A stretch of 8,879 bases of DNA from Candidatus Rokuibacteriota bacterium (GTDB lineage Bacteria > Methylomirabilota > Methylomirabilia > Rokubacteriales > JACPHL01). The DNA lies in contig JACPHL010000181.1 in NCBI GenBank assembly GCA_016188625.1, positions 1 through 8,879 on the forward strand, written 5' to 3'. A model generated the notes under the pieces. That model was not told the origin of the DNA. It saw only the letters and a program-made list of their open reading frames with translations, and ran no database searches. Shown here in pieces: positions 114 through 8,746 of the stretch. How positions within the stretch are numbered: the first letter of the stretch is position 1; every line of letters begins with the position of its first letter. A program made the position numbers and the translations under genes.

Positions 114-137
114 GGAGGGGCTCCTAGGAGCCCCTCC
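114..137. repeat. Perfect 24-bp palindrome at the left edge of repeat copy 1
   Basis: The segment is its own reverse complement (12-bp half-site GGAGGGGCTCCT), so single-stranded DNA or RNA could form a hairpin of about 10-11 bp. It overlaps the first 13 bases of the interspersed element. No T-run follows on either strand, so it does not look like a standard intrinsic terminator. In the second element copy the matching outer region is not a long palindrome, so this feature is specific to this copy. It could be a protein-binding site or part of an insertion boundary. The palindrome is seen directly; its role is unknown. Confidence 0.6.
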
Positions 138-272
138 GCGCAAGGCTGTGCGGCTCGCGCGCTCTGACCCTCGGCGCGCGGAGGGATGGTCCGCTCCGGG
201 CGCGGGCTTGCCCGCGCAACCTTGGGGGGAGGTTCGGAAGGGGGGCGTCAGCCCCCCTCCGAGGCAGCTAGC
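125..272 (+). repeat. Interspersed three-hairpin element, copy 1
   Basis: This 148-bp segment matches the reverse complement of 7052-7199. The inner 128 bp (145-272) is about 90% identical by eye with two single-base gaps; the outer 20 bp is weaker but in register. Three hairpins can form: H1 with arms 156-163 and 173-180 (8 bp, 9-base loop); H2 with arms 200-206 and 211-217 (7 bp, CTTG loop); H3 spanning 233-263 (8 bp of AGGGGGGC/GCCCCCCT, a bulged A, then 5 bp). Differences from copy 2 mostly fall in loops or make G-T wobbles, so pairing survives. The last bases hold the stop codon (268-270) of the minus-strand receiver gene. It could be a REP/BIME-like or MITE-like repeat or a structured RNA; no T-run follows H3. 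Confidence 0.85.
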
Positions 273-6510: not shown

Positions 6511-6966
6511 CTACTTCTTGGCCGCGCAGGGCTGCTTGGCCGCACACGGCTGCTTGGCCGCGCAGGGCTGCTTGGCCATCTTCTTGGCCACCTTAATGGT
6601 GACCGACTTCGCCACCATCTTGCCGTCCTGCTCGGCGTAGGACACGGTCGCCGAGTCGCCCGCCTTGACGTCGCCGGCCATGACGGCCTTGCCCGCCTTG
6701 GAGATCTTCGTCGTCTTCGCCAGGGCGAAGGCCATCTCCTTCTTCTCCTTGCCGACCTCGAGCACCAGCGAGGCCTCGTCGGCGGACTTCACCGTGCCGC
6801 TCGCCCGCATGGCCTTCATGGCGGGCTTCGCCGCGCAGGGCTGCTTGGCGGCGCAGGGTTGTTTGGCCGCGCACGGTTGGGCCGGCTTCTGCTGGGCCGC
6901 CGCCACCCCCGCGGTCCCGAGCACGAACACAGAGGCGATCACGAGAGCCAGAACCCTTCTTACCAT
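6511..6966 (-). CDS. Small secreted protein: DUF5666-like core between QPCAAK repeats
   Basis: A 151-residue exported protein. A clear signal peptide (about 1-24, VLALVIASVFVLGTAGVAAA) is followed by three QPCAAK repeats (30-47; C32, C38, C44). The core at about 54-126 (ASGTVKSADEASLVLEVG to DGKMVAKSVTIKV) has the beta-rich pattern of DUF5666-type domains, including the VKAGDSATVSY strand. The end (133-150) carries three more QPCAAK repeats (C135, C141, C147). The six cysteines are all in repeats and spaced every six residues, which suggests metal binding, thiol chemistry or surface crosslinking; none is shown. ATG 6966 lies 9 bases after AGGAGG; an earlier ATG closes after three codons. It has its own strong promoter and is convergent with the operon, so it is a separate unit. 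Lysine- and alanine-rich composition predicts a basic protein. Confidence 0.85.
   Translation of the reverse strand: MVRRVLALVIASVFVLGTAGVAAAQQKPAQPCAAKQPCAAKQPCAAKPAMKAMRASGTVKSADEASLVLEVGKEKKEMAFALAKTTKISKAGKAVMAGDVKAGDSATVSYAEQDGKMVAKSVTIKVAKKMAKQPCAAKQPCAAKQPCAAKK
6517..6570 (-). repeat. Three 18-bp tandem repeats coding the C-terminal QPCAAK units
   Basis: Units at 6517-6534, 6535-6552 and 6553-6570 share the plus-strand form CTTGGCCGCGCAGGGCTG; units 1 and 3 are identical and the middle one differs at two bases. High DNA identity points to recent duplication or gene conversion. The copy number may vary between strains. Confidence 0.85.
6826..6879 (-). repeat. Three 18-bp tandem repeats coding the N-terminal QPCAAK units
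   Basis: Units at 6826-6843, 6844-6861 and 6862-6879 are versions of the same 18-bp unit as the C-terminal array but more diverged, with a few base changes each that are mostly silent. The pattern suggests that the C-terminal array is younger or has been homogenised more recently. Confidence 0.8.
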
Positions 6967-7051: not shown

Positions 7052-7199
7052 GCTAGGTACCTCGGAGGGGGGCTCAGCCCCCCTGCCGAGCCTCCCCCCA
7101 ACGTTGCGCGGGCCAAGCCCGCGCCCGGAGCGGACCAACCATCCGCGCGCTGAGGGTCAGAGCGCGCGAGCCGCACAGCGTTACTCGGACGAGCTCCTA
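7052..7199 (-). repeat. Interspersed three-hairpin element, copy 2 (inverted)
   Basis: Second copy of the element at 125-272, in opposite orientation. On the minus strand the same three hairpins form. H1 closes perfectly (CGCGCGCT with AGCGCGCG), where copy 1 has one wobble pair. H2 is GCGCGGGC/GCCCGCGC with a 3-base loop. H3 (plus-strand 7061-7090) has a bulged C and a fully Watson-Crick outer 5-bp stem. The element fills the space between two divergent promoters (7012-7040 and 7228-7257), so it may insulate them or be a passive insertion. No transposase gene or clear target duplication is visible. No coding function is supported: the reading frames across the two copies differ by frameshifts. 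Confidence 0.85.
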
Positions 7200-7282: not shown

Positions 7283-8746
7283 ATGCGGATCGTCTGGTTG
7301 AAGCTACCGCGGCAGTTCTTTCTCACGGTCCTCTCGCTGGTCTTCCTCGCGCCCGCCAGCCTCGGCTGGGGGTGGGGGGGAGACCCGATCGCCCTTTCTC
7401 TCCCTTCCGGCCTCGATGAGCTGGTCGCGCCCCTTCCACCCCCCGCCCTGCCCGTCTCGCCCATCGAGCCCATGGCGGAGGAGTGGCCGTTCCAGGCTGA
7501 GCCCCTGGCGGAGCCGCCGCTGGTCCTGGATGACCCCCTGCTGGAGGATCCCCGGACGGAGGCGCTGGGGCTCGCCGCCCGGCTCGACCGGCCCCTTGCT
7601 CCCCCCTATCCGCTGGTCGTCAACGAGAGGGTCGAGTCCCTGATCGAGATGTTCAGCTCCGAGCGAGGCCGGGAGCGGTTCGCCCTCTACCTGGCCCGCT
7701 CCGGCCGGTACCTCGGGATGATTCAAGAGATCCTCCGGACCCGCGGCCTGCCCGAGGAACTGGCCTACACCGCGCTGATCGAGTCCGGGTTCTCCCCGCG
7801 GGCGGTCTCCCGGGCCGGGGCCCACGGCCTCTGGCAGTTCATGGAGGCTACGGCCCGCCGCTACGGGCTGGTGGTCGACCGCTGGGTGGACGAGCGCCTG
7901 GACCCGGTCAAGTCCACGGTCGCCGCCGCCCAGTACCTCCAGGACCTCTTCCAGCAGTTCGGCCACTGGTTCCTGGCCCAGGCGGCCTACAACGCCGGGG
8001 AGGCCAGGGTCGCCCGGGCGATCCAGCGGGCCAACACGACCGACTTCTGGTCGCTGACCCGGACCCGGCACCTCCGCACCGAGACGAAGCTCTTCGTCCC
8101 CTCCATCCTGGCCGCCACCGTCATCGCCCAGGACCCCGGCCGCTACGGCTTCGAGGTCGAGTACCACGAGCCCCTGGCCTTCGACGAGGGGACGGTCCCC
8201 AAGCCCATGGACTTCGAGACCATCGCCTCCCTGGCCGGCGTCTCGGTGGAGAAGCTCCGGGAGCTGAACCCCGCCCTGAAGAGCGGCGTGACCCCGCTCC
8301 CGGGCCCCTACAGGATCCGCCTGCCCGAGGGGAGTGGCGCCCGGTTCGAGCGGGCCCTGACTTCGCTTCCCGCCGACGGGATCGCGGAGTGGGGCCTCCA
8401 TCGGGTGAGGCAAGGCCAGGGGCTGCGGCAGATCGCCAAGCTCTACCAGATCCCGCCCGAGCGCCTCGCCGAGGTCAACCGACTGCGCAACTGGCGCCTG
8501 CGCCAAGGGACGGAGCTCCTGGTCCCGCTGTCCCGGAGGGTCGAGGAGAAACGGCCGCCGGTCGAGCTGGCCCGGGCCCCCAGGAAGGAGGCGCCGGGGG
8601 CGGTCCACGTGGTGCGGCGCGGCGAGACCCTCTGGGGGATCGCCTCCCGCTATCGCATGGAGGTCAAGACCCTGGCCCGGCTCAACGGGCTCGAGTCCGA
8701 CGAGGTCCTCTACCCCGGCGACCGCCTCCGGGTGCTCGCGGACTAG
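7283..8746 (+). CDS. mltD: Membrane-bound lytic murein transglycosylase D-like, with LysM repeats
   Basis: Cleaves the glycan strands of peptidoglycan to form 1,6-anhydro ends in the periplasm. 487 residues. A signal peptide (about 1-28, FFLTVLSLVFLAPASLGWG) has no clear lipobox cysteine, unlike many MltD lipoproteins. A Pro-rich linker follows to about residue 110. The SLT domain (about 113-270) contains AYTALIESGFSPRAVSRAGA with catalytic E167, then GLWQFMEATARRYGL and AQAAYNAGEARVARAI, the usual MltD signatures. A degenerate LysM-like segment (about 310-345, FETIASLAGVSVEKLRELNP) precedes two LysM domains, at 373-417 (HRVRQGQGLRQIAKLY) and 442-485 (HVVRRGETLWGIASRY), which bind N-acetylglucosamine-containing glycans. 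ATG 7283 is chosen because the ATG at 7278 is out of frame and soon stops. It is a single-gene unit with its own promoter. Confidence 0.94.
   Translation: MRIVWLKLPRQFFLTVLSLVFLAPASLGWGWGGDPIALSLPSGLDELVAPLPPPALPVSPIEPMAEEWPFQAEPLAEPPLVLDDPLLEDPRTEALGLAARLDRPLAPPYPLVVNERVESLIEMFSSERGRERFALYLARSGRYLGMIQEILRTRGLPEELAYTALIESGFSPRAVSRAGAHGLWQFMEATARRYGLVVDRWVDERLDPVKSTVAAAQYLQDLFQQFGHWFLAQAAYNAGEARVARAIQRANTTDFWSLTRTRHLRTETKLFVPSILAATVIAQDPGRYGFEVEYHEPLAFDEGTVPKPMDFETIASLAGVSVEKLRELNPALKSGVTPLPGPYRIRLPEGSGARFERALTSLPADGIAEWGLHRVRQGQGLRQIAKLYQIPPERLAEVNRLRNWRLRQGTELLVPLSRRVEEKRPPVELARAPRKEAPGAVHVVRRGETLWGIASRYRMEVKTLARLNGLESDEVLYPGDRLRVLAD

Follow-up and report, generated by a model that had tools for sequence, protein, structure and literature searches.

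The locus and its two copies

The window, that is, the whole stretch of 8,879 nucleotides analysed here, contains two inverted copies of a repeated element at positions 125-272 and 7052-7199, which the initial annotation had already described and which are 89-90% identical; as it had also stated, no transposase lies within the window. The features of the two copies are as follows.

125..272, plus strand: copy 1 of the element, consisting of a left module (125-192), the core (193-265) and the right end, as delimited by sequence alignment of copies
193..265, plus strand: 74-position core of copy 1, matched by covariance model R1 with 84.5 bits
200..217, plus strand: hairpin H2 of copy 1, an 8-bp stem (GCGCGGGC/GCCCGCGC) with compensatory changes
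224..232, plus strand: conserved linker GGGGGGAGG between H2 and H3 of copy 1, from the alignment over the order
234..262, plus strand: hairpin H3 of copy 1 (TCGGAAGGGGGGC/GCCCCCCTCCGA) with compensatory changes
268..271, no strand: CTAG (YTAR) target at the right end of copy 1, from the sequence, the ORF list and the YTAR offset statistics
124..127, no strand: CTAG at the left end of copy 1, a probable target-site duplicate, from the sequence and the alignment of copies
7052..7199, minus strand: copy 2 of the element, inverted, between the divergent genes 6511-6966 (minus) and 7283-8746 (plus)
7059..7131, minus strand: 74-position core of copy 2, matched by R1 with 82.9 bits
7106..7124, minus strand: hairpin H2 of copy 2, from structure and covariation analysis
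7062..7089, minus strand: hairpin H3 of copy 2, from structure and covariation analysis
7053..7056, no strand: CTAG (YTAR) at the right end of copy 2, from the sequence and the YTAR offset statistics

At the right end of copy 1, the CTA at 268-270 is the TAG stop codon of the minus-strand gene 268-594. The gene at 6511-6966 (minus), beside copy 2, encodes a small protein with KQPCAAKQPCAAK motifs repeated near both ends and a signal-like N-terminus, for which no Pfam family was found above the cut-off.

Copy number, range and extent of conservation

Many further copies are present in the source genome, a draft of 2.6 Mb that is 84% complete. When the 148 bp of copy 1 served as the query, 41 copies could be aligned, with identity down to 80%, far more than chance would give, and R1, which was built from the 74-nt core alignment A1, scored at least 150 places, the weakest of which are doubtful and at least 112 of which exceed 69 bits. 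Within the order, 59 of the 60 genomes carry the core, spread over four families, and many of these genomes hold at least 51 scored places each. Genome size, G+C content and gene content suggest that the order is probably Rokubacteriales of the Methylomirabilota. Outside the order, among genomes of other families in the phylum, 32 of 35 lack the core; the other three have few or weak matches, which in two of them are weak single hits. No Rfam family matched at gathering thresholds, and a match to a known IS end was probed by motif and transposase-family searches only. None of the results that the initial annotation had named as contrary to its reading was obtained, as further copies are numerous, covariation is above that of shuffles and Rfam gave no match. 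Searches of the open-access literature revealed no account of such a repeat in this bacterial group. Spread by viruses was rejected, because two exact core patterns had zero matches in viral contigs.

The core of 74 nt comprises H2 and H3 joined by the GGGGGGAGG linker, and its consensus over the order begins with TCGAGCGC and ends with CCTCCGAG. In relatives, conservation is limited to this right half of the element. Aligned copies have sharp outer ends in unrelated flanks; they start with (CT)AGGAGCCCGTCCGAGTAACG and finish with CTCCGAG and about four variable bases, followed in many copies by CTAG. The left module differs in length by lineage: it spans about 67 nt in the source genome and, in the largest sister family (f2), anything from 0 to about 55 nt; no conserved left module was found in genus g15. 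The proposal that the left arm of 45-56 nt is a decayed duplication was not borne out by a gapless offset test, which was not significant. At several source-genome loci (for example, L206, L213, L220, L226, L229, L232 and L238), left modules of types B and C precede the same core, so the left part of the element seems to be exchangeable. At the secY-adk junction of two close genomes (L191/L250), a shared insertion has diverged far more in its left arm than in its core or in the genes beside it. A second core subtype, with an H3 of the form CGGAGGGGGCCGTCGAGGCCCCCTCCGA, was observed at L191:6708-6786, L194:5577-5657, L117, L128 and L297, at times in tandem with the main form.

Conserved hairpins

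Selection on structure, which the initial annotation had suggested for three hairpins, is borne out for H2 and H3. In an alignment of 82 source-genome copies, which was itself fitted to the core model, 98.9% of the H2 and H3 cells are paired, and 8 of the 19 pairs are changed on both sides (46 cells, compared with 1.9 and 10.2 in shuffles). The covariation score of the two hairpins, 0.096, likewise exceeds the 0.029 obtained in shuffles. A compensatory swap from G-C to C-G in H2 is carried by 27 of the 82 copies, and the same swap appears in the MAFFT alignment over the order. Single copies are also folded more stably than their shuffles (z = -2.9 and -2.5). The claim does not extend to H1, which was rejected as a conserved hairpin because 11 of 19 full-length copies cannot form its central pair; the alignment prefers another pairing in this region, itself without covariation.

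Placement at gene junctions

Genes around the copies were called by a codon-usage script trained on the fetched loci rather than taken from standard annotation. Among 74 source-genome copies, 51 lie between co-directional genes, 13 between convergent genes and only two, one of which is copy 2 of the window, between divergent genes, the remainder being at contig ends. Divergent arrangements account for none of the 64 fetched gene pairs with an element, compared with 29 of the 272 pairs without one (p = 0.002). Operon junctions hold the element in both orientations. In two genera, the element lies between apparent rpsJ and rplC genes of a ribosomal protein operon (L127 in G042 and L134 in G038), with the rplC start just past its right end.

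In the source genome and in f2 alike, gene boundaries lie flush with the right (3′) end of the core. When the right-hand gene is on the minus strand, its stop codon is mostly found -2 to +4 nt from this end, and when it is on the plus strand, its start mostly lies at 0-8 nt in f2 and no more than 20 nt away in the source genome. The stops flush with the element in the source genome are 24 TAG, 17 TAA and 4 TGA, compared with 91, 41 and 162 for all genes in the loci, so that TAG or TAA makes up 41 of 45 flush stops and 91 of 249 other stops (p ~3e-12). Of 80 source-genome copies, 30 have YTAR at one exact offset, where 0.06 would be expected. Because YTAR also lies at most one base from that offset in 10 of 26 copies with a right-hand plus-strand gene, the bias points to a target motif and not solely to selection for intact genes.

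Filled and empty sites

Orthologous junctions aligned among three genomes of g15 (G037, G033 and G019) were found both filled and empty, at sites read as yggS-proC, obgE-proB, secY-adk, livM-livG, miaA and others. At one such site, the native sequence GGATTAGCG corresponds to GGGCTAGCG-core-GATCTAGCG in the filled form; at another, native GTGATGACC corresponds to CTGATG on the left and ATGACC on the right of the insertion. As judged from the empty sites of g15 and the flush distances, insertion occurs at overlaps of stop and start codons and leaves both genes intact. Short target duplications, such as CTAGCG, TCAGC, AGCGATGAG and AACCGTGA, are seen at individual loci, and the bulk excess is modest: f2 flanks contain 14 direct matches of at least 7 bp (range, 7-13 bp), compared with about 6 in shuffles.

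One junction of these three genomes (L185, L297 and L304 in G037, G033 and G019, respectively) carries two differing core subtypes and, in the third genome, only a remnant, which fits repeated use of one target; gene conversion would also explain it. Long direct repeats of neighbouring DNA flank copies L128 (~85 bp), L131 (64 bp) and L139 (~34 bp), and include a second mutL-like and a second hemH-like gene start. Long target duplications were rejected as a rule, since tests with 160-bp flanks found them at few loci only (L128, L131 and perhaps L139), with no excess in G037.

Frame bridging between flanking genes

The initial annotation had stated that the element has no coding capacity, which has to be qualified, because the elements of relatives are often crossed by an open frame that links two genes. 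A bridging frame was taken to run either from a start codon overlapping or adjoining the upstream stop or from the upstream gene itself, and to end between -8 and +6 nt of the downstream start. At operon junctions of f2, such a frame crosses the element in 32 of 62 cases, compared with 15 of 124 frame-shifted controls in which one or two bases had been removed inside the core (p ~1e-8). Bridging was found for 23 of 42 sense insertions (controls, 5 and 8) and for 9 of 20 antisense insertions (controls, 1 and 1). A stricter test gave 17 of 26, compared with 2 and 3, from a sample whose effective size is slightly reduced because a few of the insertions are orthologous (for example, L191/L250 and L279/L287). 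The frame of the core that is used differs from copy to copy, which led us to reject a conserved peptide and suggests that bridging as such, rather than a peptide, matters. In the source genome, bridging was not significant (5 of 19, compared with 3 and 2) and is therefore not claimed for the window copies; this weakness is in line with the CTAG-type targets of that genome.

Searches for a mobilizing enzyme

Profiles for Y1_Tnp, RVT_1, DDE_Tnp_1 and DDE_Tnp_1_2 all gave no match in the 84% complete source genome, and none of these families tracks copy number among the draft genomes of its relatives; G033 has at least 51 copies yet contains none of the four. Y1_Tnp was found in 11 of the 59 genomes of the order searched and is missing from the other 48, including the copy-rich G033 and G025. 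A RAYT was accordingly rejected as the mobilizer, as were DDE transposases, for which neither DDE_Tnp_1 nor DDE_Tnp_1_2 is present in the source genome, and reverse-transcriptase-driven spread, because the source genome and several copy-rich genomes lack a reverse transcriptase. A left-end motif search of the draft genomes revealed no evident autonomous partner with the same ends.

A probable mobile repeat at stop/start junctions

The element probably belongs (at roughly 75%, in our estimate) to a family of non-autonomous mobile DNA repeats that is specific to the order and resides at stop/start junctions. Copy number, phylogenetic range, filled and empty sites, flush placement, the YTAR bias, the two covarying hairpins and the preserved frame are the observations behind this reading. 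Its constant part is the 74-nt core with two strong GC-rich hairpins, preceded by a lineage-variable left module. Insertion would take place, with short target duplications, at sites that coincide with stop codons or stop/start junctions, the targets probably being YTAR (mostly CTAG) for the source genome and, for f2, YTAR or NTGA junctions. Because such a duplication keeps both neighbouring genes intact, insertions between tightly packed genes would be tolerated, and insertions between divergent pairs are rare. In f2 operons, translation may pass through the element to the downstream start from either the upstream gene or a short ORF that begins beside its stop, so that the inserted DNA would often keep translation connected. 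We suggest that a trans-acting enzyme recognizes the core and mobilizes the element, that selection for coupled translation keeps the frame and that the transcribed hairpins may affect the mRNA.

The initial annotation had offered a REP-like family, a MITE or a structured RNA, and an interspersed repeat of the REP or MITE kind is indeed what we find, although membership of a REP superfamily, a classical MITE and a stand-alone RNA are not supported. A true REP/BIME family, moved by a RAYT (an IS200/IS605-type Y1 enzyme) whose gene happens to be missing from the draft genome, would account for a palindromic repeat of more than 100 copies that lies mostly between unidirectional or convergent genes near 3′ ends, sometimes in tandem pairs, as REPs are placed alike (PMC3733652). 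However, core alignments A1 and A3 lack the GTAG tetranucleotide at the palindrome end, and the core consensus lacks the CGTC end with its CCA-like tail; together with the absence of a Y1/RAYT gene from the source genome, this sets the element apart from the REP superfamilies as defined in PMC3733652. The distribution of Y1_Tnp over the order and the apparent duplications of 5-9 bp, which are not known as a trait of IS200/IS605, also argue against this origin, which we regard as improbable. Slightly less probable still is a cis-regulatory RNA (an attenuator, a terminator or a 3′ stabilizer) that is selected at gene ends and is not mobile: strong hairpins with compensatory changes, flush to stop and start codons, would suit such a function, but a U-tract is absent, and the occurrence of both orientations relative to operons, together with junctions that are filled in one genome and empty in a congeneric one, makes a stand-alone structured RNA unlikely.

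The idea of an IS5-like MITE that duplicates a YTAR target deserves somewhat more weight, while still being unlikely. YTAR at a fixed offset, reported as the target consensus of IS711 in Brucella (PMC2266754), the sharp ends and a faint end symmetry (CTAGGAGCC / CTAGGTNCC) would fit it, and target-site duplications, a MITE trait, are present at individual loci with empty sites, with a modest excess in bulk. The symmetry is CTAGGNNCC-like in the source genome, with no counterpart conserved in the sister family, and terminal inverted repeats appear too minimal for a classical MITE; moreover, the left ends vary by lineage while the core is constant, the DDE families are absent from the source genome, and the left-end motif leads to no evident autonomous relative. 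A bolder form of the mobile-repeat reading, about as doubtful as the MITE, is that the element belongs to a new class of mobile repeat, with junction targeting independent of Y1, RT, DDE_Tnp_1 and DDE_Tnp_1_2 enzymes and with the H3 end fixed and the other end variable, and that insertions persist mainly where the two flanking genes are linked by an open frame (any of the three), so that the element would be a translational-coupling cassette spreading across the order.

If the mobile repeat has been read correctly, a dense genome can bear more than 100 copies of such a repeat without gene breakage, since a target that spans stop and start codons is duplicated on insertion, which would restore both. 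If the frame bridging holds, the effect of coupling on operon expression can be tested directly at the many junctions that are filled in one genome and empty in another within a single genus. The repeat also accounts for some of the breaks in these draft assemblies and can serve as a marker for the order.

Comparison with known repeats

REPs are intergenic, lie near gene 3′ ends, are rare between divergent genes and occur in tandem pairs (PMC3733652, PMC2817692), and the present element resembles REP/BIME sequences in all of these respects as well as in its palindromic nature and high copy number. CGTC-REPs also have no dedicated transposase, and none was found here among the families searched. 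The element differs from REPs and BIMEs in its two-hairpin core of 74 nt with a fixed linker and a fixed right end, and in its apparent target duplications. With MITEs and IS5-type YTAR targeting, as in Brucella IS711 (PMC2266754), it shares small size, a lack of coding function of its own and the YTAR target; it differs in that clear terminal inverted repeats were not seen and the searches described above revealed no partner transposase.

MIRUs are short mobile repeats at start codons whose internal ORF is coupled to the gene downstream with a spacing of -4 nt (PMC12548453). The likeness to MIRUs is one of arrangement: insertion at overlaps of stop and start codons leaves both genes intact, and in f2 an ORF across the repeat is predicted from the sequence to be coupled to the gene that follows. 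The element differs from MIRUs in its core of two GC hairpins, in its occurrence in both orientations and, for the source genome, in the predominance of CTAG/YTAR targets and in bridging that is not significant. If the frame bridging holds, MIRU-like translational coupling would have evolved or spread well beyond mycobacteria. The element is REP-like in its placement and, among the relatives, MIRU-like in its coupling, and we assign it to neither group.
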